Positions 39,341 through 54,590 of a DNA stretch of 64,000 bases are shown here, in pieces. This DNA is from Flavobacterium jumunjinense (lineage in GTDB: Bacteria; Bacteroidota; Bacteroidia; Flavobacteriales; Flavobacteriaceae), in NCBI RefSeq assembly GCF_021650975.2, contig NZ_CP091285.1, positions 2,976,001 through 3,040,000 of the forward strand. The letters are read 5' to 3'. Numbering within the stretch: the first letter of the stretch is position 1; each line of letters starts with the position of its first letter. The translations under genes were made by a program, and so were the position numbers. A model generated the notes under the pieces. The model saw only the letters and a program-made list of their open reading frames with translations, was not told the DNA's origin and made no database searches.

Positions 39341-40411
39341 TTAAATTTTATTTTCTAGTTCTTTCATTACATCAACTAAAACTTGTACGCTTTCTAATGG
39401 CAAAGCATTATACATTGATGCTCTATAACCGCCAACAGATCGATGTCCATTAATTCCAGAAATTCCAGCTTCTTTCCACATTGTATCGAATAGTTCTTGA
39501 TGCTCTGGATTTACAAGGGTAAAAGTAGCATTCATGATGCTTCTGTCTTCTTTTACAGCAACACCATTAAATAATGTATTTCGGTCAATTTCATTATAAA
39601 GTAAATTAGCTTTTGCTTCATTTATTTTTTCAATTGCAGGAACTCCTCCTAGTTTTTTTAACCATTGTAGTGTTAGTAATGAAGTATAAACTGCAAATAC
39701 AGGAGGAGTATTATACATACTTTCCTTGGTAATATGTTGTTGGTAGTTTAAGATATTAGGAATTGCTCTTCCTGTTTTTCCTAAAATTTCTTCTTTAATT
39801 ACAACTAAAGTTGTTCCAGCTGGCCCCATGTTTTTCTGTGCACCAGCATAAATGATATCAAATTTTGAAAAATCTAATGTTCTTGAAAAAATGTCTGAAC
39901 TCATATCGCAAACTAGAGGAATATCCGTTTTAGGGAAATCTTTAATTTGAGTTCCAAAAATTGTATTATTTGAAGTGCAATGAAAATAATTTGCATCAGA
40001 AGGAATTGTGAATCCTTTTGGAATGTGATTGTAATTTTCATCTTTAGATGATGCAACAACAACTGTTTCTCCAAACGCTTTAGCTTCTTTAATGGCTCCA
40101 TTTGCCCAAGTTCCTGTATCTAAATAGGCTGCTTTTCCGCTTTCTTTCATTAAATTATAAGGTACTCTTAAAAACTCTAAGCTTGCGCCTCCTTGTAAAA
40201 ATAAAGCTTGATAGCCTTTCCCTTCTAAGTTTAATAACTCAAGTACTAATGCTCTAGCTTCATCCATTACAGCAACAAAATCTTTACTTCTATGGGAAAT
40301 TTCTAGAATGGAAAGTCCTGAGTTGTTAAAATTTAAAACGGCTTGTGCTGCTTTTTCAAAAACTTCTTGAGGTAAAATACAAGGTCCTGCGCTATAATTG
40401 TGTTTTTTCAT
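39341..40411 (-). CDS. serC: Phosphoserine aminotransferase
   Basis: PLP enzyme, second step of serine synthesis (3-phosphohydroxypyruvate plus glutamate to phosphoserine). 356 aa starting MKKHNYSAGPCILP; PLP lysine in AGAQKNMGPAGTT; NHHRSVGG-like GINGHRSVGGYRASMYNALP at the C-terminus is typical. Start 40411 is chosen because the family begins directly before NYSAGP; the upstream extension is hydrophobic and not conserved. It is in a serine operon with serA, and 114 bp after an acyl-CoA reductase gene. Confidence 0.96.
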   Translation of the reverse strand: MKKHNYSAGPCILPQEVFEKAAQAVLNFNNSGLSILEISHRSKDFVAVMDEARALVLELLNLEGKGYQALFLQGGASLEFLRVPYNLMKESGKAAYLDTGTWANGAIKEAKAFGETVVVASSKDENYNHIPKGFTIPSDANYFHCTSNNTIFGTQIKDFPKTDIPLVCDMSSDIFSRTLDFSKFDIIYAGAQKNMGPAGTTLVVIKEEILGKTGRAIPNILNYQQHITKESMYNTPPVFAVYTSLLTLQWLKKLGGVPAIEKINEAKANLLYNEIDRNTLFNGVAVKEDRSIMNATFTLVNPEHQELFDTMWKEAGISGINGHRSVGGYRASMYNALPLESVQVLVDVMKELENKI

Positions 40412-40524
40412 TATGATATGTATAGTGGTTGTTATGATACAAATTTCGGAAATAGACTTTATAGAAACTATTAAAATGTGTATCAATTATTCAATTTTAT
40501 TAACAATAACGTTGTAGTAAATTG

Positions 40525-41583
40525 TTATAAATTGATTAAAAATTGCAAAGTATCTATATTATCTGCGTAATCCCAAAGGTTTGGTTTCTGTGTTTCACCG
40601 AATGAAATACTGTCCAGAATTTGATTTTTTGAAACAATACATTGAATTTTTTCTTTATCTTTTTCTAGTTTATTAGTTAACGATTCAATGGATGTGTAAT
40701 ATTCGTAAAAAACAGATGAAATTGGAGAAGAAAAGTTGGTGTCTTCTTTTAGAGTTAAAAAACCATTATCAAGTAATTTAAAATTACTCATTAAATAAAC
40801 TGCTTTGTTGTAATCATAATTATTAGCATATTTTTCATATTTAACAACTTCTTGAAACTCAAAAATAGCATTAAAAAAGTTATCGAAATTATAGCCTTCT
40901 GGAATAAAAAGTTTAGAAACATTACGACAACCCAAACCAAAATATCTAAAAACATCATCACCTAATTCAACTAATTCTTCTTTAGTTTCTTCACCAGTAA
41001 GGATTGCTACAGAATTCCTGTTTTTTCTAATGATATTTGGTTTGTTTTTAAAGTAATATTCAAAATAACGTGCTGTATTATTACTTCCAGTAGCAATAAC
41101 AGCGTCAAAACCTTCTAATTTTCCTTCTGCTAAAGTGATTCTTTCACTAATTCTGTCATCTAAAGAAATTAAATATTTGATTAAGAATTTAACTAAATAT
41201 TGATCATTTGATGATGTTTTAATTAAGGCCTTGTGTCCAGCTATTAATACAGATAATAAATCATGAAAGCCAACAAGAGGAATGTTTCCAGCGAGTACTA
41301 AGCCTACAGTTTTAGGCTTACAGTCTTCAAGTTTATAAGGTGATAACCATTTATTTAGATTTTCTTCTTTTAAAGCAGTAGCCCAAGATTGGATAGCAAA
41401 ATGAACATTTTCTGGCGTAAACCAACCATTATGAGATTGAGATAGTTCAATAAGTTTACTGAATTCTTCTTGAAATAAATCGTTGTTTTTAACAGCGGTG
41501 TTTACATGAAATCCGTCTAGTTGAAATTGACTTAAAAATAGACCTAAATCCGTAAAACTTTTTTTTATTTCATTTTGTAACAT
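40525..41583 (-). CDS. LuxC-family acyl-CoA reductase
   Basis: 352-aa member of the LuxC/acyl-CoA reductase family, which reduces acyl-CoA to aldehyde with NADPH. Conserved blocks: KTVGLVLAGNIPLVGFHDLLS, GHKALIKTSSND, RYFEYYFKNKPNIIRKNRNS and the Cys-containing GLGCRNVSKLF, whose Cys would carry the thioester. It is located between serC and the divergent ferredoxin gene, an arrangement I recall as common in Bacteroidota. The true substrate is unknown. Confidence 0.88.
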   Translation of the reverse strand: MLQNEIKKSFTDLGLFLSQFQLDGFHVNTAVKNNDLFQEEFSKLIELSQSHNGWFTPENVHFAIQSWATALKEENLNKWLSPYKLEDCKPKTVGLVLAGNIPLVGFHDLLSVLIAGHKALIKTSSNDQYLVKFLIKYLISLDDRISERITLAEGKLEGFDAVIATGSNNTARYFEYYFKNKPNIIRKNRNSVAILTGEETKEELVELGDDVFRYFGLGCRNVSKLFIPEGYNFDNFFNAIFEFQEVVKYEKYANNYDYNKAVYLMSNFKLLDNGFLTLKEDTNFSSPISSVFYEYYTSIESLTNKLEKDKEKIQCIVSKNQILDSISFGETQKPNLWDYADNIDTLQFLINL

Positions 41584-41589
41584 TTGTTT

Positions 41590-41621
41590 TTTGCTTTTAA
41601 GTGGTTTACGTTGTATTTTTG
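41590..41621 (+). promoter_or_regulatory. Ferredoxin gene promoter
   Basis: TTTG (41590-41593), 20 bp, TATTTTTG (41614-41621): a clean Bacteroidota promoter about 88 bp upstream of ATG 41709. Confidence 0.7.
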
Positions 41622-41708
41622 CACAAAAATAAGTAATAAGTTAGAAAGAATTGGAGAAATAGAAGTAATTCTTCAAACTTACGAACTTCAAAGTTTAAAC
41701 TTAAAGAG

Positions 41709-42059
41709 ATGGCAATAAAGATAACCGACGAGTGTATTAATTGTGGAGCTTGTGAACCAGAGTGTCCTAATACAGCAATTTATGAAGGTGCAGATGATTG
41801 GAGATATAAAGACGGAACAAAATTATCAGGTAAAATAGTTTTACCAGATGGTACCGAGGTGGACTCTGATGCTGCACAAACACCTTTTTCTGATGATGTG
41901 TATTATATTGTTCCTGGAAAATGTACAGAATGTAAAGGATTTCATGAAGAACCGCAGTGTGCTGCAGTTTGTCCTGTAGATTGTTGTGTTCCAGATGATG
42001 AATATGTAGAGTCTGAAGAAACCTTGCTTAATAGGCAATCATTTTTACACAATGAGTAA
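41709..42059 (+). CDS. Ferredoxin with two 4Fe-4S clusters
   Basis: Low-potential electron carrier of 116 aa. First cluster motif CINCGACEPECPN; second in CTECKGFHEEPQCAAVCPVDCC, with the longer C-x8-C spacing of the Allochromatium (Alvin) type. A 45-residue insert separates them (DWRYKDGTKLSGKIVLPDG). The gene is divergent from the acyl-CoA reductase, a possible redox partner by context only. Confidence 0.95.
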   Translation: MAIKITDECINCGACEPECPNTAIYEGADDWRYKDGTKLSGKIVLPDGTEVDSDAAQTPFSDDVYYIVPGKCTECKGFHEEPQCAAVCPVDCCVPDDEYVESEETLLNRQSFLHNE

Positions 42060-42062
42060 CAT

Positions 42063-42089
42063 ATTCCCTTCTTTGTGAAGGGATTTTTT
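42063..42089 (+). terminator. Terminator of the ferredoxin gene
   Basis: ATTCCCTTC-TTTGT-GAAGGGATTTTTT. The next gene starts only 3 bp later, so it may be read by leakage. Confidence 0.85.
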
Positions 42090-42091
42090 AT

Positions 42092-42517
42092 ATGATTAAG
42101 AAGAAGATACCGTTTAATATCATTTTTGCTTTTCTTTTTTTAGGATGTTTACTGTTTAACTTTTGTAGCAAACTATATACATACGTAGTTTCGGAAAAGT
42201 ATGTAGGGAAAATTATTGGTTTTAGTATTTATCAGCCAATATATCCCATTATAGAATTTGTAGATAAAAACAACAGTATTCATGTTTTAAAAGAGGAAAA
42301 GTGGTTCTATGCTTTTACAGATGATCAAATTAAAGGCTATGAGAAAGATTTGAACAGAGATGTGACTATTTTGTATGATGCTTCTAATTCTTCCTATGAA
42401 TATGTTACTTTCTATAATTACTGGTTAACAGTTACTAATTTGTTAACTTGGTTTTGTATTCTTTTTTTTGGAGTTATAATTTTTGAACTTATCCAATCGA
42501 TATTTTTTAAGAATTAA
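42092..42517 (+). CDS. Hypothetical membrane protein, 141 aa
   Basis: Two membrane segments (IIFAFLFLGCLLFNFCSKLYT and WLTVTNLLTWFCILFFGVIIF) flank an extracytoplasmic beta domain of about 85 residues (YVGKIIGFSIYQPIYPIIEFV, DVTILYDASN), the topology of DUF3592-type proteins. No enzymatic motif. It begins immediately after the ferredoxin terminator. Confidence 0.75.
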   Translation: MIKKKIPFNIIFAFLFLGCLLFNFCSKLYTYVVSEKYVGKIIGFSIYQPIYPIIEFVDKNNSIHVLKEEKWFYAFTDDQIKGYEKDLNRDVTILYDASNSSYEYVTFYNYWLTVTNLLTWFCILFFGVIIFELIQSIFFKN

Positions 42518-42644
42518 ATTCAACTCAATTTCAATTATTAATCTATTAAATTAATTCTTTTTGACCTCGATAAGCAACATTTTATCGACAAGGTTTGGTG
42601 TTTTAATTTAATATTTGTTAAATTCGTTAAAATTGTTAATTAAA

Positions 42645-43856
42645 ATGAGAAAATTATTTTTCCTTTTTTTAGTTTTTTATTCTTTACATTGTTTTTCTCA
42701 AACAAAAGAGATAACCATCTTATTTGTTGATGCTGACACGCTATTACCTGTTGAAGAAGTTACTGTTACCTCATTAAGAACAAAGGAGAACTTTGTTTCT
42801 AATGTTGATGGAATTGTAAAAGTAGTGTTTGAAAGATCTGTTTATTTAGAAATAAATCATTCTTCTTATAAAAAGTTTATTTTAAAAACGATTACTTTAA
42901 AAGATGAAGTGAATACTGTCTACTTGGAAAGTACTGTTAATAAACTTCCAGAGATAATATTAACAAAAAATCATCCTCAAGATATATTACAATCTTTAGT
43001 TGATAATTCTAAGGCAAAATTGTCAATTCCATCAAATTTAAGAATCTATATTAGAGAATTTTTCAAAAAGAATGATGCAAATATTCTCTATAACGATGGT
43101 TTAGTGAATTTTCAAATAGAAAGAAATAAATCAACTGTAAAAACAGATATATTAATAGAACAGAATAGAGTATTAGGTATTCTTGATGAAAAATCAGACA
43201 ATGATATTTATGGATACAATCTGAATGATTTGATGGAGAATTATTATCAATTTAAATATCTAGATGAAATTTTAACATCAAGAGTAAAAGATAAATATAA
43301 TTTTCAAATCAATTCATATCCAGAAAATGAAAATTATTATAGATTAACGGTTAGTCCATTAGAAGAGGAAAAAGGTTTTTTGTTTAATTTTTCTATTTTA
43401 TACGACCATAATAAAAGGATAATTATAGAAATTAATAATTTTATTTCACCGGAAAGGGCTGAAGAAAATACAAATTACTCGGTTTCTAGTAGAAAAAACA
43501 TTTATAAATCGGCCTTTAAGACAACCTATAGAGTTAAAGGAAACGATTATTATTTAGTCTATGCTAAAGAAGAAATAGGCTATTTATCTAAGAAAAAAGA
43601 AGAAATAATTAAAACAGAAATAAGGAATTACTTTGTTACTTCTAAATTTACAACACGATTATTTACCTATGATCCAAAAGATGTTTTTAAGGATAAAACA
43701 CTATTGAACAGACAAAATACTATTCTTACAGATTTTTGGAATATAGAATCTGGTTTGCTTTTAACACAAGATGAACAAGATTTTATTGATAGTTTATCAC
43801 CTCCTCCTTCAACAGAAGTTGAAGAAATTGAAGTTGAAGAGATTAAAGAAGACTAA
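42645..43856 (+). CDS. Exported protein with carboxypeptidase-like regulatory domain
   Basis: 403 aa with signal peptide (ends CFSQ). Residues about 22-95 form a CarboxypepD_reg-like beta domain (ITILFVDADTLLPVEEVTVTS, NVDGIVKVVF). A longer domain follows with YIREFFKKNDANILYNDGLVNFQIE, typical of Bacteroidota cell-envelope proteins, and an acidic C-terminal tail (EVEEIEVEEIKED). I chose ATG 42645 over 42615 because it starts the signal peptide directly. Its stop abuts the stop of the convergent anti-sigma-like gene with no spacer. Confidence 0.82.
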   Translation: MRKLFFLFLVFYSLHCFSQTKEITILFVDADTLLPVEEVTVTSLRTKENFVSNVDGIVKVVFERSVYLEINHSSYKKFILKTITLKDEVNTVYLESTVNKLPEIILTKNHPQDILQSLVDNSKAKLSIPSNLRIYIREFFKKNDANILYNDGLVNFQIERNKSTVKTDILIEQNRVLGILDEKSDNDIYGYNLNDLMENYYQFKYLDEILTSRVKDKYNFQINSYPENENYYRLTVSPLEEEKGFLFNFSILYDHNKRIIIEINNFISPERAEENTNYSVSSRKNIYKSAFKTTYRVKGNDYYLVYAKEEIGYLSKKKEEIIKTEIRNYFVTSKFTTRLFTYDPKDVFKDKTLLNRQNTILTDFWNIESGLLLTQDEQDFIDSLSPPPSTEVEEIEVEEIKED

Positions 43857-44669
43857 TTATAGCTTCATATTTAGAGTTTCTTGATAATTATAATTGTTTT
43901 TGTCTTTCAGAATAATCTTAGAGATTTCATTTGCTTTTTCTTTATTGTCTAATTTTAGATGTATTAATAATTGATACCAAAAACCTTTTGTATGTTCTTC
44001 AAATTCAGTAAGCTGGCTCAGTTTATTAAAGTAGTCTAATGCTTTTTCATTCTCATTTAATACATCATAGGAAGCACCAATATACATAAGCGAATAAGGA
44101 TATAATTCGTTCGTGGTTTCAATATTTTCAAAAGACAGGATTGCACTTTTGTATTCTTTCTTTTTAAAAGCAATTTCACCTTTTGTAAAATTATCTAAAG
44201 CATTTCCTTTATCTATGAAAGAGGGTAAATTTTCCCAATTAACATTTTCGCTGTAATAGGATTCTAAACTTGATTCAGAATTGAAAAAAAATAACGTAGC
44301 AAAGAAAATTGTAACACTTGCGGCAATAAAATAGTTAAGGTAATGTGTTTTCCTTTTTCTTGGTTTTCCATTTGAAATTCTATTTTCATTACCAATAGTT
44401 CTAATTTTGTTAGATAAACGTAGGTATTCGTCAGTTTTTAGTTTTTCTTTTAGCAATGCTATAGCTTCAAAATCAGTTTCATTAGATGAAATATCTGTGG
44501 TAGAAGTTCCGTGCATAGCAAATAGTTGTTTTTGAATAATTACATCTTCTTGTAATTGTTCATCTTCTTGTAATAGCTTTTCAAAAGACAATCTTTCTTG
44601 TTCCGATAACTCTCCTTTGAGGTATTGGTCTATTTTATCTAATAATTCTTCGGTTAAAATTCTCCCCAT
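43857..44669 (-). CDS. Membrane-anchored TPR protein, probable anti-sigma factor
   Basis: 270 aa. Residues 1-100 are cytoplasmic (LLDKIDQYLKGELSEQERLS, a fold like the first helices of anti-sigma zinc-finger-type domains, without the zinc ligands). One membrane segment lies at about 110-130 (YFIAASVTIFFATLFFF), and residues 150-265 are extracytoplasmic tetratricopeptide repeats (ALDNFTKGEIAFKKKEYKSAI, LMYIGASYDVLNENEKALDYF). It overlaps the sigma gene by 16 bp and is translated after it, the usual sigma/anti-sigma arrangement. That it inhibits the sigma factor is inferred, not shown. TPR domains may sense or bind an envelope partner such as the TPR-CHAT protein encoded nearby. Confidence 0.75.
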   Translation of the reverse strand: MGRILTEELLDKIDQYLKGELSEQERLSFEKLLQEDEQLQEDVIIQKQLFAMHGTSTTDISSNETDFEAIALLKEKLKTDEYLRLSNKIRTIGNENRISNGKPRKRKTHYLNYFIAASVTIFFATLFFFNSESSLESYYSENVNWENLPSFIDKGNALDNFTKGEIAFKKKEYKSAILSFENIETTNELYPYSLMYIGASYDVLNENEKALDYFNKLSQLTEFEEHTKGFWYQLLIHLKLDNKEKANEISKIILKDKNNYNYQETLNMKL

Positions 44670-45214
44670 TTTTTTATCTTTTGAAATTCAAGGTCTGATT
44701 TTATTAGTTCAATTAATTTCGATCTACATTTAAAAACTCTTTGTCTAACTGTATTAATGTTAGAGTAGGCATACTCTATAACTAGTTCTTCATAGCTTGC
44801 ACCATTAAAATAACTACTCAAAATGTCTTTACAGTTTATTGATAAAAGATTGAATTTTTCTAAATAGAATTCGATGCATTGTTGTTCTAAAATTATAGTA
44901 CTTAAATCGGTTTCTTTTTCTTCTAGTGTTGAAACATCTGTTTTTATTACCCTATTTTTTAAACTTTTCTTCCAAATGTTTTTGCAAATCACAAAAAGAT
45001 AAGCTTCAAAAGAAAGAATAATTGTTCTTTTTTCTTTCTGAGTAATAATAATATACATCAAAGCATCATGAAAAACATCAAGAGCATCATCAGTATTTCC
45101 TTTATTAGAGAAAATATAGGAAGCAATTTTGGGATATATTTTACTGTATATTTCTTTAATAACGAAATCGTCTCCTTCAATTAGAGCATTGATATATCGT
45201 TCTGTATTTTCCAT
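44654..45214 (-). CDS. ECF-type RNA polymerase sigma factor
   Basis: 186 aa with region 2 (about residues 20-75, DALDVFHDALMYIIITQ) and region 4 (about 120-175, CKDILSSYFNGASYEELVI ... NTVRQRVFKCRSKLIELI), separated by a short linker; no region 1 or 3. This is the ECF layout. It is transcribed divergently from the protease gene, with a 275-bp region between them. Its targets may include the TTGGGTAAT-N13-ACACACT promoters at 45431 and 49652; none was found upstream of the sigma gene itself. Confidence 0.9.
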   Translation of the reverse strand: MENTERYINALIEGDDFVIKEIYSKIYPKIASYIFSNKGNTDDALDVFHDALMYIIITQKEKRTIILSFEAYLFVICKNIWKKSLKNRVIKTDVSTLEEKETDLSTIILEQQCIEFYLEKFNLLSINCKDILSSYFNGASYEELVIEYAYSNINTVRQRVFKCRSKLIELIKSDLEFQKIKKWGEF

Positions 45215-45489
45215 TATAATATTTTTTTTGAGCTTTATAGACTCATAATCATATGATTATATAGCAAAAGTGAATTTTTAAATCTAACTTTAGTAAATTA
45301 TTAAAAATTTAAGAATTCAGTTTTTTTAGTACGTTAAAAGTACAGAAATTATTTATATAATGAGAAAATTATAGGTAAAAGGAAAATAAGATTGATTTTT
45401 TAAAAAAATAGAGTAACAATTTTCGAAATATTGGGTAATATATTTATGTAATACACACTATTAAAAAGTAACTTAAAACTTATAAAAAA
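45215..45489. promoter_or_regulatory. Divergent promoter region of the sigma and protease genes
   Basis: 275 bp of AT-rich DNA. The part next to the protease holds the bipartite motif (45431-45459). On the minus strand the sequence shows TTTTGCTATATAAT around 45262-45275, a weak candidate for the sigma gene's own promoter. Confidence 0.5.
45431..45459 (+). promoter_or_regulatory. Bipartite motif, site 1 (candidate ECF promoter)
   Basis: TTGGGTAAT (45431-45439), 13 bp, ACACACT (45453-45459), 30 bp upstream of the protease ATG. Identical halves and spacing at 49652-49680. It does not fit the TTTG/TAnnTTTG promoter type. Confidence 0.7.
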
Positions 45490-46800
45490 ATGAAAAGCTT
45501 AAAAAAAATAATTGTTCTTTTTGTGTTGTCAATTTTTTCTCTTTCGTGTAGCGAAGATCATTTATACACTGAGGAGGAATCTCAAAAGAGCTTATTAAAG
45601 GAAAACAGTCTAAGGAATAATAACAATAACATTTCAAATCTTCCTGTCTATTCTCGTAATAAACTAATCATTCAATATTTATTAGGAACACCAAATAGTG
45701 TAAAATCTAATTTAAGAGATATTTTCGGTGTTCAAAATTATGAAATTTGTGAGCATTGTGAAGATAAAAACATAGAGTTGTGGATTTTTGATAAAGGAAT
45801 TCTAATTGAGCCTAAGAAGACAACTATCGAAACAGGAAGTGGTGGTGGAATTGAATATATTGTAGAAGTAGATTATGAGTTTGTGTTCGGTATAGATTTA
45901 TCTAACCCTTATTTAGGTTCAGATTCCGATACAAGTTTTTATCCATATATAAAATCCGATAATGAAGGAGTAACAGTTGCTGTTTTAGATACTGGAATCG
46001 CTCCAACAATTGGTGCAGATACATCACCAATTTTTACATCACCATTTTTGTATAATGCAAGTAATGATGGTTATACGGGAGTAGAGTCTGGTTGGGATTT
46101 TGTAAATGATGATCCAAATTGCTTTGATGATAATGGGGGAAGACATGGAACAGTTGTTTCATCAATAATACATAATGTGTTAAATAATGACGAAATTCCA
46201 CATCAAATATTACCTATTAAAATTGCTAATCGAAGAGGTCAAATAAGTTATTTTGGGCTTTTATGTGGTTTTAACTTTGCATTAAATCATGCTCAAGTGG
46301 TTCAAATGAGTTTCGGTTGGTATGATGATGGTTCTGGAGATCAATTGAATACTATTTTTTCAGAACTATTAAATTTATATCCAAATGTAATGGTTGTTAC
46401 TTCGGCTGGAAATGATGGTTTCAATAATGATGTAGTGTCACATTACCCTTCTAATTATCCGCAAGATAATTTAATCGCAGTTGCAGCAGCAAATAAGAAA
46501 GTATTGTTTCCAAGTTCAATAGGTTTACCCGATCCAAATATTGCTGGTTTTTCAAACTATGGAATTGTAAATGTCGATTTTTTTGCTCCTGGTGAAGGAA
46601 TTCCATTTTTAGGTTATGATATGGATGGAACTTCTTTTGCTGCTCCATTTGTTTCTGGTGTTGTTGCAAGAATAGTTCAATCGAATCCTGGATTCACTCC
46701 AAATAATGTGTTAGATGCATTAACTTCATATGGAGAACCTTGTCCAGTAACTTTTAGCACAACACGAAAAGTAAAGCACAATAGAATAATTATGCCATAA
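45490..46800 (+). CDS. Subtilisin-like S8 serine protease lipoprotein
   Basis: 436 aa with lipobox (IFSLSC, Cys20), so membrane-anchored on the outer face. A region of about 130 residues, probably an inhibitory propeptide-like part, precedes the catalytic domain. The catalytic triad is clear: Asp167 (VAVLDTG), His219 (GRHGT), Ser382 (DGTSFAAPFVSG), with oxyanion Asn308 (SAGNDG). It ends at the domain, without a T9SS sorting domain. It is 30 bp downstream of bipartite motif site 1. The substrate is unknown; the adjacent anti-sigma-like protein is a plausible one. Confidence 0.94.
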   Translation: MKSLKKIIVLFVLSIFSLSCSEDHLYTEEESQKSLLKENSLRNNNNNISNLPVYSRNKLIIQYLLGTPNSVKSNLRDIFGVQNYEICEHCEDKNIELWIFDKGILIEPKKTTIETGSGGGIEYIVEVDYEFVFGIDLSNPYLGSDSDTSFYPYIKSDNEGVTVAVLDTGIAPTIGADTSPIFTSPFLYNASNDGYTGVESGWDFVNDDPNCFDDNGGRHGTVVSSIIHNVLNNDEIPHQILPIKIANRRGQISYFGLLCGFNFALNHAQVVQMSFGWYDDGSGDQLNTIFSELLNLYPNVMVVTSAGNDGFNNDVVSHYPSNYPQDNLIAVAAANKKVLFPSSIGLPDPNIAGFSNYGIVNVDFFAPGEGIPFLGYDMDGTSFAAPFVSGVVARIVQSNPGFTPNNVLDALTSYGEPCPVTFSTTRKVKHNRIIMP

Positions 46801-46808
46801 ATTAATGT

Positions 46809-46866
46809 AAAACAAGCAAAGTCATGAGGTTCTTTAAAAAAGCATATTGGTTTTGCTTGTTTTTTT
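46809..46866 (+). terminator. Terminator or attenuator between protease and CHAT genes
   Basis: AAAACAAGCAAA ... TTTGCTTGTTTTTTT with a 30-nt loop, 25 bp before the CHAT gene. The long loop makes full termination uncertain. Confidence 0.55.
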
Positions 46867-46890
46867 ATAAATTACATGGAAAAATAGGCC

Positions 46891-49629
46891 ATGTTATTTT
46901 TCCTTAAGTATTTTTATGTTTTTATTCTATTTTTCTTTTCATTAACGGGAACTTCTCAAAAGTTTTTGAAGGAAGAAATGGATGCAATTTTGGCTATTGA
47001 AGGAAACAATAAATTAAATGAACTACATTATTTATTGTCAAATCAAAATAAGCTTTTAAAAACACAAGAGTTGGCATTGTTATATGTTGAAATTGGTAAG
47101 CAATTTTATAAAAACAAAGACAATGAAAATGCAATTTTGTTTTTCAAAAAAGCAATTGTCATTCAAGAAATGTATAAAAAAAATAATCTTGAAGTACTTA
47201 ATAGAACAAGAAATAATTTAGCATGGATTTATTATTATGAAGAGAAAAACAATGAACGGTTTAAAACTTTAAAACAAATTGTTGATGATGCTGGAAAAGA
47301 TAAATATACCTTCAATGCCATAATCGATTTTTCTATTTTAGAAGCAAAAAGAGGCGATTTTTATTCTGGCTTACATCGATTAAATATAGAATTAGCAAAA
47401 AATAAAGAGGTTGAAAAGGAAATTAAACTTAGAGCTATTTTAATTTACATCTATAGTAAAAAATATGAAAACGCTTTCACTTCTGTTAATCAATCTGATT
47501 TGAATATTGTAAAGCAACATCATTTAAAAATTGAACAAAAATTTCACGAATCTAATTTAGAGCAAAATGAAAAATATGATATCTATAATAATCTAGCAAA
47601 TGTTTATGAAGCATTTAATGAGATAGATGTTGCATTAGCATTATATGAAAAAGTTAGAAAATATTATGATGATGACACTCTGAATAAGCTAAAAGCAGTT
47701 AATAATATTGGAATACTACATGCAAAACAACAAAAATACAGTAAAGCAAATAATTGTTTTCAAGAAGTAATAAACAAATCAACCGATATTGAACAAATTG
47801 CAACAGCATATAATAATTGGGGTTATTTTTTGCAAACAAATTCTTCTTCAAGCAAAATTCCATATTTTCAAAAAGCAATACATATAATATTAGAAGAAAA
47901 CCAGACAGATTTTACTATTCCATCGTTAGATCAAATTAAGAAATCTGGATATGAACAAGAAATTTTAGTCTATTTAGTAGATTTAGCCTATCATTATGTT
48001 GAAGCCTATAAGGAAGAAAAAAAGAAACATTATTTACTGAAAGCAAAAGAAATAGCATATAGAGTTGATGAGCTTGTTTCTTTAATTCGGTATGAAAGTA
48101 ATGCAGAGCAATCTAAACTTTTTTGGATAGAAAAAGGAGTAAATACCTATATGTTAGCGGTTGAAGTTTGTTATTTTTTGAATAGTCCAGAAGAAGCATT
48201 CTATTTTATGGAAAAGAACAAAGCTCTTTTGTTGTTAGAAAACATAAAGACTTTGCAAGCTAAATTAGCATTAGATATTCCTAAAGAAATTCAAGATAGA
48301 GAATACAAATTGCATTATGAACTACTCACTTTAGAGCGACTGTTTCAAGAGCAATCAAGCAATAAATTAATTAAACAAAAATACTCTAGTAAAAACAAAG
48401 AATTTCAGCAGTTCATTGATTCGGTTGAAAGTGAGTATCCTAAATATGTTAAAACGAAGCAAAAAATCGAAACAGTAACACTCAATGAAGTTATTGCAAA
48501 TACCATTTCTAAAGAGGAAGTTTTTGTTTCTTATATTTTAAATGAAAATCATGGTTTTGGAATCTTTTGTACATCTAATGAGAAGCTACTTTTTAAGTTG
48601 AATAATGTAATTCAGCTACAATCAGATTTGGTACTTTTAAAGCAATTAATGAAACAACGCTTTATGGATAAAGTCGCAAAAGCAGATTTTAATAGAATTA
48701 GTAATAGCGTTTTTCAATCATTATTTCCTTTTAAAGATGCTTTGTCTAAGTTGAAAAATAAAAAAATAATTATTGTTCCAGATGATGCCCTACTTAGTTT
48801 GCCTTTTGAAGCATTATTAACTTCGCATAGTGAAGATTTTTCAAAACATTATTTAGTTAACTTTTCAGAAATATCTTACCTACAATCTTTTTCTGTTTTT
48901 GAAAAAATAAAACAAAAAATAAATCATCCACAAAAAAAGATAATGGCAATAGTTCCGTATCAATTCGAGAACAATTCTTTACCCGAATTATTAGGCTCTA
49001 AAGAAATGATGCATACATTAGAAAGATATAAGAAATCAGATGTGTTTGAAGAAAACCAAGCAACTAAGGAGAATTTTTATAATTTCAGTAATGAATATGA
49101 AATAATTCACTTAAACACACACGCAGGAATTGATAATATTACGAGAACACCTTGGATTGCCTTTAGAAATAAAAAATTGACTTTGGATGAATTATATGGA
49201 ATTGAAAACGAAGCTAGTTTAGTTATTTTAGATGCCTGTAAAACGAATGATGGGGTTTTTGTTTCTGGTGAAGGAATATTAAGTTTGTCGAGAGGTTTTT
49301 TTTATAACGGATCAAAAAGTGTTTTAGCTTCAATATGGAATGTGAATCAAAAAGCAGGAAATACAATAATAAAAACATTCTATGATGAATTAGAACAAAA
49401 AAAAAGTAAATCGAAATCCTTACAAAACGCGAAGATAAAATATTTACAAGAGCATAAATTTTCTGAAGCTTTACCTTATTACTGGGCTTCATTTACATTG
49501 ACGGGTAGTACTTCATCCCTCGAAATTTCAAAAGGAATAACTTTTGAAACCATTTTGATTATCGTTTTCATATTCATTTTGCTAGTATATATTTGGAGTA
49601 AAAAAAGCAATAAATTTTCAAAAAAATAA
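46891..49629 (+). CDS. TPR-CHAT domain (caspase-like) protein, C-terminally membrane anchored
   Basis: 912 aa. Signal peptide (residues 1-23, ends GTSQ), tetratricopeptide repeats over about 60-340, a helical middle region, then a CHAT domain (about 560-870) of the caspase/separase peptidase clan. The catalytic dyad is His744 (LNTHAG) and Cys783 (ILDACKT), followed by the typical LSLSRGFFYNGSKSVLASIW block. One membrane segment lies near the C-terminus (about 886-904) with a short Lys-rich cytoplasmic tail, so the TPR and CHAT parts should face the periplasm. It is in the same orientation as the S8 protease gene and separated from it by a hairpin. Its substrate is unknown. Confidence 0.92.
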   Translation: MLFFLKYFYVFILFFFSLTGTSQKFLKEEMDAILAIEGNNKLNELHYLLSNQNKLLKTQELALLYVEIGKQFYKNKDNENAILFFKKAIVIQEMYKKNNLEVLNRTRNNLAWIYYYEEKNNERFKTLKQIVDDAGKDKYTFNAIIDFSILEAKRGDFYSGLHRLNIELAKNKEVEKEIKLRAILIYIYSKKYENAFTSVNQSDLNIVKQHHLKIEQKFHESNLEQNEKYDIYNNLANVYEAFNEIDVALALYEKVRKYYDDDTLNKLKAVNNIGILHAKQQKYSKANNCFQEVINKSTDIEQIATAYNNWGYFLQTNSSSSKIPYFQKAIHIILEENQTDFTIPSLDQIKKSGYEQEILVYLVDLAYHYVEAYKEEKKKHYLLKAKEIAYRVDELVSLIRYESNAEQSKLFWIEKGVNTYMLAVEVCYFLNSPEEAFYFMEKNKALLLLENIKTLQAKLALDIPKEIQDREYKLHYELLTLERLFQEQSSNKLIKQKYSSKNKEFQQFIDSVESEYPKYVKTKQKIETVTLNEVIANTISKEEVFVSYILNENHGFGIFCTSNEKLLFKLNNVIQLQSDLVLLKQLMKQRFMDKVAKADFNRISNSVFQSLFPFKDALSKLKNKKIIIVPDDALLSLPFEALLTSHSEDFSKHYLVNFSEISYLQSFSVFEKIKQKINHPQKKIMAIVPYQFENNSLPELLGSKEMMHTLERYKKSDVFEENQATKENFYNFSNEYEIIHLNTHAGIDNITRTPWIAFRNKKLTLDELYGIENEASLVILDACKTNDGVFVSGEGILSLSRGFFYNGSKSVLASIWNVNQKAGNTIIKTFYDELEQKKSKSKSLQNAKIKYLQEHKFSEALPYYWASFTLTGSTSSLEISKGITFETILIIVFIFILLVYIWSKKSNKFSKK

Positions 49630-49651
49630 ATTTTCATTTTTTTGTTATTTT

Positions 49652-49680
49652 TTGGGTAATGATTTTTTATTAAACACACT
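49652..49680 (+). promoter_or_regulatory. Bipartite motif, site 2 (candidate ECF promoter)
   Basis: TTGGGTAAT (49652-49660), 13 bp, ACACACT (49674-49680), 80 bp upstream of the T9SS cargo ATG. The same halves and spacing as site 1. A predicted start about 7 bp later would begin at the palindrome at 49687. Confidence 0.7.
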
Positions 49681-49686
49681 TATAGA

Positions 49687-49740
49687 TAGATCGATCTAAG
49701 GGTGGAACCTGAAAAACCCTAATACAGAATAGAGTAAGGG
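49687..49740 (+). promoter_or_regulatory. Palindrome and small hairpin in the leader of the T9SS cargo gene
   Basis: TAGATCGATCTA (49687-49698) is a perfect 12-bp palindrome. It is followed by AGGGT (49699-49703) that can pair with ACCCT (49716-49720), and a later AGGG that could compete. This may be an mRNA leader structure or an operator. Confidence 0.4.
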
Positions 49741-49760
49741 AAAACAAATAAACATTAAAA

Positions 49761-50852
49761 ATGAAAAAAATTATTCTATTTGTCGCAATGTTGTTAATGG
49801 GGATGACTAGCAATGCAGCCTTAGTAGCAAACTTGACTTTAAATCCTGCACCAACGCCAAGTGCATCTTATCCAGGTTATCATGTTGTTAGTCTTCGTGT
49901 AACTACAAATGGACCAGGGTGCTATGGAAAGTTTTCTTTTCTTTGTCAAAGTAGAGAAGTTGGTACAATTTCGTGGTCAAATTTCACACCAAGTGTTCAA
50001 CAATTTCCATTTACAACAAGTCTCTTAGAGGTGTATTCAGGAACTGCGAAAACATTACAATTGGAAGGTACTAATTATGAGTATAGAATAAGGGTAAGTT
50101 TTAATCCTCAAGGAATTAATGGTTGTGATTCTGCACCTACACTTTATGATTACACAAATAGTGTAACAGTAAACATTCCAGGAGTATCAGTGCCTTGTTT
50201 CACGATGTATAATGTTTTATCTACACAAAACGAATCTTCTCTTTATGGGCCAATGCCTGTAAAGACTATTTGTCAAAATGCAGTAACAATAAATGGGAGC
50301 TGTAGTAAATTTGAGAGTGGTTATCATATTCGTATCTCTGAATTTAATTTGACAACGTGGTCGTTTGTTTCTGATTATTATAATGATTGGGCTGGTACAG
50401 GAGAAGCACCATCATTTATTAGCTTAAATGCACTTGCAAATGAAAATGATAAGTATTTTCAGACAGGAAAATTATATGCTGTAGGTTTTTCTATTGGACC
50501 CGTTTGGAAATCTGCACCAGTTCAGTTTTTTAGAGTGGTATCTTGTAAAACATCTGGAACTTCAGATGGACAGGATATTATTTCATTTTTAGATATAGAA
50601 AATGATACTATTGATGCGTTAAAACTATATCCAAATCCAGTGAAAGATGTTTTAATCATAACAGTTGATAAGGAAGAAAAAATAATTTCTTATGAAATTT
50701 TTGATAATTATGGCTCAAGGGTTAAAAAAGAAAAATTAACAGCAGCTTCAAACGAACAGAATGTTAATTTGACCGAATTGAAAAAAGGATTTTATATTAT
50801 TAATATAGAAACTGATAAAGGAAGTTATAAAGAAAAAATTATAAAAGAATAA
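49761..50852 (+). CDS. T9SS type A sorting domain protein, secreted
   Basis: 363 aa with signal peptide (ends SNAA). The body has no family that I recognise; it has about six cysteines (CYGKFSFLC, CFTMYN, CSKFESG, VSCKTSG) and is beta-rich. Residues about 285-363 form a type A sorting domain (LKLYPNPVKDVLIITV ... LKKGFYIINIETDKGSYKEKIIKE), so it is exported by T9SS and attached to or released from the surface. It shares the bipartite motif with the S8 protease gene, suggesting that it belongs to the same regulon. Confidence 0.85.
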   Translation: MKKIILFVAMLLMGMTSNAALVANLTLNPAPTPSASYPGYHVVSLRVTTNGPGCYGKFSFLCQSREVGTISWSNFTPSVQQFPFTTSLLEVYSGTAKTLQLEGTNYEYRIRVSFNPQGINGCDSAPTLYDYTNSVTVNIPGVSVPCFTMYNVLSTQNESSLYGPMPVKTICQNAVTINGSCSKFESGYHIRISEFNLTTWSFVSDYYNDWAGTGEAPSFISLNALANENDKYFQTGKLYAVGFSIGPVWKSAPVQFFRVVSCKTSGTSDGQDIISFLDIENDTIDALKLYPNPVKDVLIITVDKEEKIISYEIFDNYGSRVKKEKLTAASNEQNVNLTELKKGFYIINIETDKGSYKEKIIKE

Positions 50853-50878
50853 GTTTATTACTGTAGGTTAACAATGTA

Positions 50879-50916
50879 GAAAATCCGATTATAGCAAAAG
50901 TTATAATCGGATTTTT
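50879..50916. terminator. Bidirectional terminator
   Basis: AAATCCGATTATA-loop-TATAATCGGATTTTT between the convergent genes ending at 50852 and 50936. Confidence 0.88.
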
Positions 50917-50935
50917 AAGTTTATTAGATAACTGT

Positions 50936-53674
50936 TTATTCTACAATTAACTTAGCTGTGAATAGTTTTCTAGAATGAATCTTTATAATGTAGATTCCTT
51001 TTGGTAAATCTTGTGTTAATAGTGAGTATTTATTATTGTTTACATTTTTTGTAGCATATAATAATTGTCCTTCAGTATTAAATAATTCAATCTCATCAAT
51101 AGGATAATCACATTGAATGAAAGTTTGCTTATTGTTATTGGTCGGATTTGGATAGAGTTTAATGCCTTTGTCTATTTCAAATGCTGTGTTTTTTAAGGGA
51201 GAAACAATTTCAAAGGACACTCTATTGGAAACCTCATTATAAGAATCATTAGTGAACATCACAATAAAGTAATTACCTTCTTGGTTTGGCATGTTTTGAT
51301 TCTCAATTTGGGAGCTACCATTTGCTAAACCTTGAAAATATTGATAACTTATTAAAGGTTGTACATTTGGGTTGTCTCCTTCGTTATAAACACCCAACCA
51401 GTCTTTAACAATTCCTGGAGCATCTGTCCAAGAAGCGTTAATTTGTTCCCCAAGTTCATATACAGGTTTGTCAATCCAAAGTTCGGTAACAATATCACCA
51501 ACTTTAAAGAACACTTTGTTTCCAATTGCATCATAATCATCTTCTAAATAATAGGAAGCGTAATAATATCCTTTTGGGAGGTTTTGGAAAGTTAACGAGC
51601 CATTTGTGCTAGTTACATATTCATACGCTGTAGAAGGAGCATCTCCAGCATTAATACCCATTTTGTAAATACCTATCCAATCATTAGATAAATTAGGGCC
51701 ATTGGTAAAAGAAACAATAACATCAGTTCCTAACGCATATTCTGTTTCGTCGGTACTAATTGTTGGAACAGGTCCTACATAGAAGTAGATTCTATCGGCT
51801 ACTTCAGTATATCCGTTATTTATAAAAAGAGCAACGTAATAACGACCACTATTGGCTAAACCAGAAGTGAAATTGGTTGTACCACTAGACGTACCATTTG
51901 TATATTGCCAAGATTGAGAAGATGGTGTTCCTGGTGTTTGTCCGTCTTTGTAAATACCAATCCAAGTGTTGTTTGTTGTTGGAGCATTTACATAATTTAC
52001 ATTTATTGTTTGGTTTATGTTGTAGGTATTCGTTGGACTATCAATAGATAGAGTAACGGTTCCAGTATTACTATTTGTAATTTCAAAAGAAACTGCATCA
52101 CTCCAATCAGACCACTCTAGGTTTCTATCTCTATATCTAAGTTTTGCAAAGTAAGTTCCATTATCTAACGAGTTTGTTGGAATTTCCATTTTGGTAATAT
52201 CTACCCCTAGATTAACATCTACAGTAGAATCACGTTGTGTAGCATATTTTCCAAATAAATTCTCATAATCTCTATATGATTCTTTTTCAATTACATTAAA
52301 ATCTTGAAATTTAGAAATAACAAACTGAGAAGTGTTTAGTAACTCAGGTTCATTAGTAGAAAACGGGCTTCCTTCTAAGGTAATTGGTAATTGAACAGTG
52401 CTAGAAAAAGTATTTGTAATTGATGGTTTGTTAGGTTTTGTTTTGTTTTTATAACGGTGAAATTCATCCATCAATTGGTTATTTTTCCATTTATAAATAC
52501 TTCCAATAGAATAACTTTCAATATCCATTGTTCCATTGGTAACGTCAATATCTACAATTTGATACATCCAGTTACTTATTGTTTTTTGAACATCTTCAAA
52601 ATCTTTCTCAGTAGACATTGACCAGTATTGATCCCAAGCAGTTCCTCCAGAAATGATATTATAAGTAGGTGTGTTTTTTAATTGACCTCTATGATATAGG
52701 TGATGATGTGCACCTACATGCATGATATATTTGTCTGTGGTAGTTAAAAGTGGGACAGCCGTTTCTCTTACCCAATTTGAAATATCACCAACATATTGTT
52801 CCGCTTGATAAGGACGATGGCTTAAAGAAATAACCCAATCTACTGTTGTGTCATTTTTAGCAGCTGTTAAAACTTGCTGTAACCAGTTGAATTGAGTTGT
52901 GCCAGTATGCTCTGAGCTTAAACTAATAAAAAGAACATTTCCAGCTTGTTGTGCATAATAATTTTCAGAATTAGATGAAATTCCTTGATAGTTCAACTCA
53001 CTCATGTAAAAGTGGCTATAATAAGAGTTCATTCCTAAAGTTCCATAGGTTTCGTGATTTCCTACTGTAGTTTGGATAGGTAAATAGCCAGATAATGCTC
53101 TGTTCTTTTTAAAATGTACATTTTCATAATGATCTAATGTTCCAACATCTACTTGATCTCCAACCATAAATGTCATGGCAATATTGTCATTAGGATCGAG
53201 AGATGCACCCCATTTTTCTTTCACTTTTCTTTTTGCGGCAGCAACTAAAGAATCATATCGAGGTTCATTTTTTAGTTGATTGTCACCCATGATTAAGAAT
53301 CGAATATGTCCGTCTGCTGTAGCTGCTTCACCTGGATTAGGAAGTGTTTTAAACGAAAAAATAGCAGAGGTTGCACTTCCTGTTTTTATCTTGTAATAAT
53401 ATTTAGTGTTAGGGCTTAAGTTTGTTAGTTTAGCAGAATGATAGTAATAATTACCTGGATAACCCACATCGGTTAGGATATTGGTGTTTCCTGTAACGGT
53501 TACATTTAAATTAGTCGAGTTTGTTCCATATTCTACAATAGTTTCATTATTATTACTTGTTTTCCAGTTGACATAAATAGAAGTTGGAGTAACGTTTTGT
53601 AAATAAGGATGTAGTGCTTGAGAAACACTAAAATTGAAGAGTAGAATACTTAAAATAAGTAATGCTTTTTTCAT
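50936..53674 (-). CDS. Secreted metallophosphoesterase with T9SS type A domain
   Basis: 912 aa. Signal peptide (ends SVSQA), purple-acid-phosphatase-type fibronectin-like N domain (about 25-110), calcineurin-like phosphoesterase domain (about 120-400) with metal motifs GDNQ, GDQVDVG, GNHETYG, SHRPYQ and GAHHHLYH, then a series of Ig-like beta domains (DWIGIYK repeated three times), and a type A sorting domain (KLYPNPTNNNKQTF). It likely cleaves phosphate esters outside the cell; the repeats may bind the surface. The repeated beta modules distinguish it from intracellular enzymes. Confidence 0.92.
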   Translation of the reverse strand: MKKALLILSILLFNFSVSQALHPYLQNVTPTSIYVNWKTSNNNETIVEYGTNSTNLNVTVTGNTNILTDVGYPGNYYYHSAKLTNLSPNTKYYYKIKTGSATSAIFSFKTLPNPGEAATADGHIRFLIMGDNQLKNEPRYDSLVAAAKRKVKEKWGASLDPNDNIAMTFMVGDQVDVGTLDHYENVHFKKNRALSGYLPIQTTVGNHETYGTLGMNSYYSHFYMSELNYQGISSNSENYYAQQAGNVLFISLSSEHTGTTQFNWLQQVLTAAKNDTTVDWVISLSHRPYQAEQYVGDISNWVRETAVPLLTTTDKYIMHVGAHHHLYHRGQLKNTPTYNIISGGTAWDQYWSMSTEKDFEDVQKTISNWMYQIVDIDVTNGTMDIESYSIGSIYKWKNNQLMDEFHRYKNKTKPNKPSITNTFSSTVQLPITLEGSPFSTNEPELLNTSQFVISKFQDFNVIEKESYRDYENLFGKYATQRDSTVDVNLGVDITKMEIPTNSLDNGTYFAKLRYRDRNLEWSDWSDAVSFEITNSNTGTVTLSIDSPTNTYNINQTINVNYVNAPTTNNTWIGIYKDGQTPGTPSSQSWQYTNGTSSGTTNFTSGLANSGRYYVALFINNGYTEVADRIYFYVGPVPTISTDETEYALGTDVIVSFTNGPNLSNDWIGIYKMGINAGDAPSTAYEYVTSTNGSLTFQNLPKGYYYASYYLEDDYDAIGNKVFFKVGDIVTELWIDKPVYELGEQINASWTDAPGIVKDWLGVYNEGDNPNVQPLISYQYFQGLANGSSQIENQNMPNQEGNYFIVMFTNDSYNEVSNRVSFEIVSPLKNTAFEIDKGIKLYPNPTNNNKQTFIQCDYPIDEIELFNTEGQLLYATKNVNNNKYSLLTQDLPKGIYIIKIHSRKLFTAKLIVE

Positions 53675-53815
53675 TAGAATTGTTGTTTAGTTTAGTAACG
53701 ACGAAATTACCTCGAATCTATAAGGTAAGTTTTTTCTTAATGTTACCAATAGACCTCAATCTTTATTAAAAAGTTATATAGTTTAAGAGAAGTTTAAGAG
53801 AAGTGGAGTGGTATG

Positions 53816-53847
53816 AAAAAAAACCTAACGTAATACGTTAGGTTTTT
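53816..53847 (-). terminator. Terminator of the gene at 53872
   Basis: AAACCTAACG-TAATA-CGTTAGGTTT with T runs, 25 bp after the stop on the minus strand. Confidence 0.88.
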
Positions 53848-53871
53848 GTAGTTTAAAATTTTTATGAAGAT

Positions 53872-54408
53872 CTACTTTTCAATTGTAAATTTCTCCATGG
53901 TAATTTGATCGTTTTTATAATCAAATGTTTCTAGGATAAGATTACCCTCATTATCTAAATAACCAAAAGACACTTTATCTTTACTTCTGAAAATATAATT
54001 GTTATTTGATGTTTTTCTTAGAACTCCAGTCTCACTGTTTGCAGAGTTCATCATCGAATAGCCATTTCCCTTTTGAATAATTTGATATTTTCTACCATTC
54101 AAATTGTAATAGGCAGATTGATCTATGTCAATAAATTTAGTTTCACCATCAATTTTTATTTTGGTTGTTTTTGTAACATCTACTTTAGCTTCTTCCTTTA
54201 TTGGAATATTCTTTCCTTTTTGTTCTGATAATGCAAGTTCTACATTTTGAGTTTCTTTTGTTTCTATTGTTTTTACTATTTCTTGTTCTCCTTTAGAATC
54301 TTTAATAGTTTTAGTTACAGTTTTTGTTTCTTTCTTTACATTTTTGTTTTGTGCTACAATATTTAATGTGCTAAATGATAATAGAGCAGTTAAAATTAAA
54401 CTTTTCAT
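53872..54408 (-). CDS. Hypothetical exported protein, 178 aa
   Basis: Signal peptide (residues 1-20, ending NIVAQ), then a Lys/Thr/Glu-rich charged region (residues 21-90, KNVKKETKTVTKTIKD) and a C-terminal beta domain with FIDIDQSAYYNLNGRKYQII and NYIFRSKDKVSFGYLDNEG. Not recognised as a named family. Single gene with its own terminator. Confidence 0.75.
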   Translation of the reverse strand: MKSLILTALLSFSTLNIVAQNKNVKKETKTVTKTIKDSKGEQEIVKTIETKETQNVELALSEQKGKNIPIKEEAKVDVTKTTKIKIDGETKFIDIDQSAYYNLNGRKYQIIQKGNGYSMMNSANSETGVLRKTSNNNYIFRSKDKVSFGYLDNEGNLILETFDYKNDQITMEKFTIEK

Positions 54409-54542
54409 GATTTCTTGTTTTAAAATTATAGTACAAATGTATAACTGATTGATATGTTTTATGTTATATCATTTTGAGAGCTTGTTATATAATTATAAGG
54501 TAAGATGAGTTATACAATTCTAGTTAATCTCAAGAAATAAAA

Positions 54543-54569
54543 AAAGCTGTCCTAATTTAGAACAGCTTT
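54543..54569 (-). terminator. Terminator of the TonB receptor gene
   Basis: Minus strand AAAGCTGT-TCTAAATTAGG-ACAGCTTT followed by T residues, 22 bp past the stop. Confidence 0.8.
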
Positions 54570-54590
54570 ATATTGTATATTAATGTTTAG

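Follow-up and report, generated by a model that had tools for sequence, protein, structure and literature searches.

A predicted proteolytic switch of an ECF-like sigma factor by a TPR-CHAT protease in Flavobacteriaceae

The stretch of DNA analysed here (the window; 64,000 nucleotides) comes from the genome of Flavobacterium jumunjinense (4.68 Mb), whose nearest named relatives found were other Flavobacterium species. One locus of the window encodes an extracytoplasmic function (ECF)-like sigma factor, a membrane tetratricopeptide repeat (TPR) protein resembling an anti-sigma factor, an S8 (subtilisin) protease, a TPR-CHAT protease and a type A protein of the type IX secretion system (T9SS). 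We consider it probable (about 0.68) that this locus represents an envelope-signalling module of Bacteroidota in which the CHAT protease cuts the membrane anti-sigma protein after K154 and thereby frees the sigma factor for transcription of the protease and payload genes. The main evidence that CHAT most likely cuts after residue 154 is that a conserved site in the linker of the anti-sigma protein co-varies with residue 820 of CHAT. All five ORFs were found at the positions and with the domains that an earlier note, made from this sequence, had given, although the sigma-model match was weak.

Gene order, topology, promoter motif, the conserved linker site and its co-variation with the CHAT pocket were computed. 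Cleavage, any later proteolysis, the sign of the feedback loop and the part played by the S8 or prodomain-like exported protein are inferences. In the proposed mechanism, the TPR anti-sigma protein would hold the sigma factor at the inner membrane, and CHAT, a periplasmic membrane-anchored protease of the separase/caspase class, would cut it in the linker that joins the membrane helix to the TPR domain. Once the TPR domain is lost, further proteolysis, as in other regulated-proteolysis systems, would release sigma. The freed sigma factor would start transcription at TTGGGTAAT-N16-CACT promoters and switch on the S8-CHAT operon, as a feedback, together with exported payload genes including the adjoining T9SS protein.

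The anti-sigma linker and the CHAT pocket

The membrane TPR gene had been proposed as the cognate anti-sigma gene, and it looks so from the gene overlap, the topology and weak NCBIfam matches. A transmembrane (TM) segment was recognised by hydropathy in 55 of 60 family proteins, with the N-terminal side more positive in 53 of those 55. Of 32 close relatives, 9 gave a match to the NCBIfam 'anti-sigma factor' model NF052375 with E≤0.1 (lowest E 9.3e-4, cut-off not applied), and Pfam TPR matches of the window protein were under their cut-offs. No FecR model was present among the listed Pfam matches of the window protein or among 25 of the 45 families matched by 32 relatives. An AlphaFold model built from 32 sequences (mean predicted local distance difference test score, pLDDT, 76; predicted template modelling score 0.51) contained N-terminal helices at residues 7–18, 23–35 and 37–52 (pLDDT about 80), a poorly modelled membrane helix at about 110–130 (pLDDT under 50) and a confident TPR fold at about 153–270 (pLDDT about 95). 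In structure comparisons it resembled the TPRs of YbgF, BamD and LapB; the comparison was filled by TPR folds and uninformative on the N-terminal part. The layout looks like cytoplasmic helices with a predicted sigma-binding role, one TM segment, a periplasmic linker and the TPR domain.

Linker statistics were taken from 89 of 91 family proteins, those with a recognised TM segment. The column of window K154 contained Arg in 66, Lys in 15, Gln in four, Met in three and Ser in one, so that 81 of 89 were basic, and the following column was Gly, Ser or Asn in 85 of 89. Only one other low-gap column of the anti-sigma protein was as basic. In the model, K154-G155 lies between a short helix (135–142) and the first TPR helix (160), in a block with pLDDT 67. 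The pair R[GS] was present in 60 of 89 linkers (0.08–0.10 per control window); for [KR][GSN] the count was 83 of 89, whereas shuffled linkers averaged 42.5 and never exceeded 52. Such a pair would be the expected look of a protease site with a basic P1 residue. The tripeptide LPS was rejected as a family-wide motif: it was found in 31 of 38 proteins of the window's clade but in 4 of 54 elsewhere; the shared feature is the basic residue.

The CHAT domain of the window protein matched PF12770 with 156.6 bits (cut-off 24). The catalytic residues named in the earlier note, H744 and C783, were kept in 56 of 56 CHAT proteins, and proteolytic activity is predicted. A C-terminal TM segment with a positive tail was recognised in 53 of 56, as was an N-terminal hydrophobic, signal-like segment (53 of 56). 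On hydropathy, both CHAT and the TPR domain of the anti-sigma protein would be placed in the periplasm.

Columns of CHAT were screened against residue 154 in a set of 85 anti-sigma/CHAT pairs. Arg154 was paired with Asp820 in 63 of 63 cases and Lys154 with Glu820 in 12 of 14, the exceptions being the window (Gln) and locus L172 (Asp). Gln154 was found with Glu820 twice and Gln820 twice, Met154 with Glu820 three times and Ser154 with Glu820 once. Column 820 read without alignment agreed in 84 of 85 pairs, with one missing. Column 706 was Glu in all 63 Arg154 pairs, and columns 742, 781 (two before the catalytic Cys) and 788 were also associated with residue 154. Six named relatives all combined Lys154 with Asp781 and Glu820, which agrees with this pairing; they belong to the same clade and one was already in the pair set. 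On a tree reconstructed from the TPR part of CHAT, residue 154 changed six times and column 820 five times, all five on shared branches, which placed column 820 first of 739 columns (next best Jaccard index 0.29). Random placement of the changes by branch length never gave more than three shared in 20,000 draws. A tree built from the sigma factor covered 83 of the 85 loci. On it, the three changes of column 820 were all among the four of residue 154 and column 820 was first of 745; in the reverse test on this tree, residue 154 was first of 221 anti-sigma columns. The proposal that CHAT cuts the periplasmic part of the anti-sigma protein is thus supported, as a prediction, by a K/R-G/S linker site that co-varies with the residue expected in the P1 pocket.

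By spacing from the catalytic cysteine, which in MALT-1 we take to be Cys464, CHAT positions 781 and 820 would match MALT-1 Asp462 and Glu500. Passages of PMC4626109 describe a P1 Arg that is bound in MALT-1 by Asp365, Asp462 and Glu500, and a like use of acidic residues by separases.

Several observations weigh against cleavage after residue 154. Profile alignment with the TPR-CHAT protein of Craspase, the type III-E CRISPR protease, puts Ser666 at column 820, and K670, which passages of PMC9729208 equate with the P1-binding Asp of separase, four positions on; because of this offset, the pocket equivalence of residue 820 is one of spacing, not of structure. L172, with Lys154 and Asp820, is contrary to the pairing rule, and [KR][GSN] alone is frequent in control windows of the same proteins (0.52–0.62 per window). 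Independent changes are few, from three on the sigma tree to five on the CHAT-TPR tree, where they include two reversals in one clade and where two Met branches may be one event. This small number, and the fact that the genes travel together, would also fit an explanation in which residues 154 and 820 are clade markers inherited together in proteins that need not touch. Other columns should then track them too, yet the next CHAT column reached a Jaccard index of 0.29–0.33 against 0.75–0.83, and the runner-up among the anti-sigma columns had 0.40 where the best had 0.75. Moreover, of the two residues in the best pair, one is where P1 and the other where its pocket would be expected. We regard shared inheritance without contact as distinctly unlikely.

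Distribution of the module and the optional S8 protease

The sigma factor of the window matched TIGR02985 with 37 bits (E 3.7e-9, cut-off 126.4), TIGR02937 with 25.4 bits (significant E, cut-off 42.9) and PF04542 with 16.7 bits (E 0.006, cut-off 24). Among solved structures, one solved sigma factor was matched (5uxx, E 8.8e-4). In its context the window protein has features expected of an ECF sigma, namely an adjacent anti-sigma-like gene and a predicted promoter type of its own. A sigma match at E≤1e-6 was found in 120 of 299 family genomes, while a close sigma (E≤1e-30) was present in only 4 of 199 genus genomes, the host included. The clade of the window's sigma comprised 38 loci (branch support 100/99).

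The earlier note had set conservation of the neighbourhood across Flavobacteriaceae as a check, and conservation was found. A set of 63 loci was assembled: 60 chosen sigma matches, covering most of the strongest and some of the weaker, together with the window locus and two paralogous loci from the host genome. Profile searches detected the anti-sigma protein in 60 of these, CHAT in 56 and S8 in 35, several of the S8 matches being small proteins only. The constant core of the module is three genes, encoding the sigma factor, the membrane TPR anti-sigma-like protein and the TPR-CHAT protease. In six close relatives (F. jejuense, F. sp. J27, F. profundi, F. sp. NRK F7, a Flavobacteriales metagenome-assembled genome and F. 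sp. 9AF), profiles recovered the same succession of anti-sigma, sigma, S8, CHAT and a T9SS-type protein; the payload position was taken by differing proteins.

CHAT proteins were also sampled first, to avoid a bias towards sigma, in 60 family genomes (E≤1e-20). This gave 40 matches in 26 genomes, of which at least 27 lay near such a sigma. For 15 matches a sigma was located within about 7.5 kb by sigma-match coordinates or, for one, by profile. Reading of 20 further loci (21 matches) found sigma and anti-sigma within six genes of CHAT in 12, anti-sigma only in one and neither in seven loci (eight matches). All three CHAT genes found in the host genome sit in such sigma/anti-sigma loci. Among 37 loci chosen from CHAT matches across the phylum (one of them a locus where the profile found no CHAT), 17 had both genes, including 9 of 11 inside the family.

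On the opposite side, the sigma factor matches curated sigma models only under their cut-offs; 8 of the 40 CHAT matches lacked such a sigma nearby, with a further 4 of 40 outside the examined set; and outside the family only 8 of 26 inspected loci had both genes, those 8 falling in four other families. Candidate neighbours of four Bacteroidales CHAT loci (L197, L199, L202 and L193), read by eye, were not sigma- or anti-sigma-like.

The S8 protease had been proposed as a regulator jointly with CHAT. Its triad, given earlier as D167/H219/S382, was intact in 21 of 21 full-length proteins including that of the window, and a lipobox was read by eye from the sequence. A structure model (mean pLDDT 89) contained a prodomain-like β-α-β-β-α-β domain at residues 53–134 (window 45646–45891), before the catalytic domain, and the protein aligned with unprocessed pro-subtilisins from residue 56. 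With both triad and prodomain fold present, it is a subtilase with an I9-like prodomain. Across the 38-locus sigma clade, however, the gene before CHAT encoded a full-length S8 protease in 20, a small exported protein in 15 and an unclear product in three. S8 is therefore optional, and an obligatory regulatory role was rejected; the CHAT half of the earlier interpretation gained strong indirect support, while the S8 half was not supported. That S8 rather than CHAT is the activating cutter of the anti-sigma protein is very improbable: it adjoins the sigma gene in those 20 loci with its triad intact, but is missing from 15 loci that keep CHAT and the linker site, and the co-variation is with CHAT (CHAT columns were screened and S8 columns were not).

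A profile of the small proteins, built from 11 of the 15 (four were excluded by hand as too divergent or of low complexity), matched the N-terminal part of S8 at 96.3% (48 columns), against 0.4% for the protease part. Singly, 6 of 15 matched the N-terminal part at E<1e-3, and the others had weak or no resemblance. Since the small proteins as a group resemble the S8 prodomain, it seems that CHAT is usually accompanied by an exported part of prodomain-like character, and we propose that this part, or S8, acts as a sensor or activator beside CHAT. The hairpin between the S8 and CHAT genes is possibly an attenuator. At L220, the small exported gene and CHAT are tandemly duplicated, and the GGGTAACATTTTAAAGTTTTATAAACAA promoters of the two copies are almost the same.

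A second branch of the module (L007, L080–L092 and L097) consists of sigma, anti-sigma and CHAT with a protein of about 650 aa and an exported protein of about 330 aa. The larger protein has a WEFGDG segment that looks PKD-like by eye, and the host genome has one such locus.

Promoter motif, leader RNA and predicted regulon

GGGTAA was the most enriched 6-mer (count over expectation) between the sigma gene and the CHAT operon. It faced the operon in 40 of 48 divergent CHAT loci, where 0.83 were expected from composition; the reverse complement was found in one, the reversed word in five, and the motif before 12 of 295 genes further away. In convergent loci, GGGT[AC]A upstream of the CHAT operon was not beyond noise (divergent 8/14, convergent 7/21, sigma-less 4/22, control 11/181 genes), and by eye clear sites were seen only in L216, L218, L220, L222 and L223. 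The distribution indicates that the GGGTAA motif belongs to the divergent sub-family only. Among the six close relatives, TGGGTAA was located upstream of S8 in five and before the payload gene in all six.

Within the host genome, TGGGTAAT-N12..17-CACT occurred six times against three for the reversed pattern, and five of the six had a spacer of exactly 16 bases, including both promoters of the window locus (S8 and T9SS). GGGTAA-N20..34-GATCGATC occurred four times against none reversed, each followed by a leader resembling the DUF805b RNA. Further sites resembled the first promoter of their own locus at 14.5 of 28 positions against 11.4 for other loci (46 sites, 32 loci; 0 of 20,000 permutations), and within one genome the own promoter was the best match in 14 of 21 cases, with 7.2 expected. 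Distal sites in the host precede a gene for a precursor resembling those of ribosomally synthesized and post-translationally modified peptides (RiPPs), followed by a radical S-adenosylmethionine (SAM) gene; a T9SS protein gene; and a small gene of lipoprotein-like type. A further gene of that type lies behind a variant site, CCCT (RiPP and lipoprotein labels were read by eye). Because the motif is limited to the divergent sub-family and the short pattern is close to control, the case for a distal regulon depends on the constant spacer length and on the leader that the sites have in common.

A genus-wide count of the short promoter was rejected as proof: TGGGTAAT-N16-CAC occurred five times in the host (reversed once) and up to five times in unrelated genomes, and overall the control was similar to the signal. 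At L159:2419–4043 (genome about 2201418–2203042), a site of the same promoter type with a DUF805b-like leader is followed by a small gene whose product begins with a GG-type leader; beyond it lie a hairpin and a gene for a radical SAM protein (PF04055); from this site before a RiPP-precursor-like gene (by eye), the sigma factor may also switch on a modified peptide.

The output had been given in the earlier note as a T9SS surface protein, and this is supported as a prediction. The protein carries a C-terminal sorting domain (PF18962 and TIGR04183 both over cut-off), and its gene shares its promoter type with the S8-CHAT operon; the same site precedes the payload gene in all six relatives. As both protease genes are themselves predicted sigma targets, they would form a feedback loop, which corrects the arrangement proposed earlier. 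The position of both genes behind the predicted promoter is also what would be seen if CHAT and S8 were outputs only, processing the payload while another protease removes the anti-sigma protein. We think this unlikely, as it leaves unexplained the conserved linker site, its co-variation with the CHAT pocket and the constancy of CHAT amid a varying payload.

The window copy of DUF805b (RF02914) scored 25.6 bits (E 6.3e-4), under the gathering score of 35.6; copies in L049, L051, L053, L054, L059 and L067 were over it. The element was rejected as a marker specific to the regulon: the host has 14 at E<1e-3, and a promoter was rightly spaced at only five (L099, L105, L106, L110 and L111; a site at −72 in L103 was not counted). 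The 30 best elements of other family genomes, one per genome, had GGGTAA in one case, sigma-54-like sites in five and neither in 24. In those five sampled genomes (L122, L137, L141, L145 and L147), the element lay 28–31 nt after the sigma-54-like site. In others it follows the GGGTAA promoter, and DUF805b thus has the look of a 5' leader common to genes under alternative sigma factors in Flavobacteriaceae. A literature search covering few subscription papers found no paper on this RNA. A flavobacterial transcription start map lists six sigma motifs, namely three housekeeping variants, sigma-54, a TAnnTTGY box and a CGT box, and GGGTAA is absent from the passages of PMC9723704 on those motifs.

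Relation to known systems

The Csx29/Csx30/CASP-sigma system of type III-E CRISPR (DiCASP, Craspase) likewise uses a TPR-CHAT protease to cut a protein that holds an ECF-type sigma, relieving inhibition. According to passages of PMC10028731 and PMC9729208, that protease is cytoplasmic and activated by a guide-RNA effector, the inhibitor is soluble, and the cut site in Csx30 is at residues 427–429 or after L407, depending on the report. In contrast, the anti-sigma protein of the window spans the membrane, and the cut is predicted at a basic residue of its periplasmic linker. No Cas7-11/gRAMP effector was seen by eye among the ORFs of window positions 40000–55000, and PADLOC gave no Cas match for the five window proteins.

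A membrane anti-sigma factor that is cut outside the cytoplasm to free its sigma is also known from RseA-DegS and RsiW (passages of PMC10028731). Unlike in those systems, the predicted first cutter is a CHAT-class cysteine protease whose gene adjoins that of its target and would be controlled by the same sigma. Separase, MALT-1 and gingipain-R have the same His/Cys dyad and bind a P1 Arg in an acidic pocket (passages of PMC4626109 and PMC9729208), whereas CHAT is a bacterial envelope protein with TPRs, a C-terminal anchor and a predicted substrate. An ECF sigma is likewise tied to the type IX system in PorXY-SigP of Porphyromonas gingivalis (PMC7712824). There, a two-component system drives the sigma for T9SS machinery genes; the sigma factor of the window would instead act on a gene for T9SS cargo, under the control of a protease module.

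In a literature search, which covered few subscription papers, combinations of CHAT with sigma, anti-sigma or flavobacteria returned only CRISPR-related or unrelated papers. The module is widespread and apparently has not been described previously; what would be new is regulated proteolysis of a membrane anti-sigma factor with a CHAT protease as the predicted first cutter. Bacteroidota have many CHAT (caspase/separase-like) proteins without a known job, and the predicted module ties a large set of them to transcription. The Csx29/Csx30/sigma system linked to CRISPR would thereby stand next to a wider class of switches that pair a protease with a sigma factor. Somewhat more speculatively, we lean towards a view in which many TPR-CHAT proteins of Bacteroidota would be dedicated periplasmic anti-sigma cutters acting on one R/K|G/S bond, with site and pocket co-evolving, and the type III-E branch would be a CRISPR-coupled cytoplasmic relative of a commoner device. 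Multi-copy genomes, with nine sigma matches in one, would then operate several insulated switches in parallel, with a separate promoter and payload for each. The likely substrate, exact bond, promoters and payload genes are all named as predictions, and each step can therefore be tested by point mutants. The module family also provides, ready-made in nature, sets of protease pockets, cut sites and promoters that match one another.

Table 1. Features of the locus, with positions in the window
Feature	Position	Strand	Remarks
Membrane TPR anti-sigma-like protein	43857-44669	-	270 aa; overlaps sigma gene by 16 bases
Predicted cut site, K154-G155 codons	44205-44210	-	Linker between TM and TPR; conservation and co-variation with CHAT 820
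ECF-like sigma factor	44654-45214	-	186 aa; TIGR02985 E 3.7e-9, under cut-off
Predicted sigma-dependent promoter of S8-CHAT operon	45432-45459 (genome 3021432-3021459)	+	TGGGTAAT-N16-CACT
S8 (subtilisin) protease, lipoprotein-like	45490-46800	+	PF00082 98 bits
Hairpin with T-run between S8 and CHAT	46808-46867	.	Inverted repeat; also chance-level Rfam match, E 1.2
TPR-CHAT protease	46891-49629	+	PF12770 157 bits
CHAT H744	49120-49122	+	
CHAT D781	49231-49233	+	
CHAT C783	49237-49239	+	
CHAT Q820	49348-49350	+	
Predicted promoter of T9SS gene	49653-49680 (genome 3025653-3025680)	+	TGGGTAAT-N16-CACT
Leader of T9SS gene	49689-49740	+	GATCGATC 49689-49696, then DUF805b-like RNA element 49699-49740
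T9SS type A protein, predicted payload	49761-50852	+	PF18962 54 bits, TIGR04183 52 bits

Beyond the payload gene, a strong inverted repeat at 50876–50935, which shows in a chance-level Rfam match, separates it from the next gene (window 50936–53674, minus strand), which encodes a purple-acid-phosphatase-like metallophosphoesterase with a T9SS sorting tail. Genomes G195 and G177 contained nine and eight sigma matches, respectively, with 22 and 10 DUF805b matches, and parallel switches within one cell are possible there. In L163 (genome 403500–423000), a small-protein cluster has four transcripts starting with a repeated AG(T/A)AGAGTTCAG..CTACT-like sequence, followed by DUF805b-like elements.

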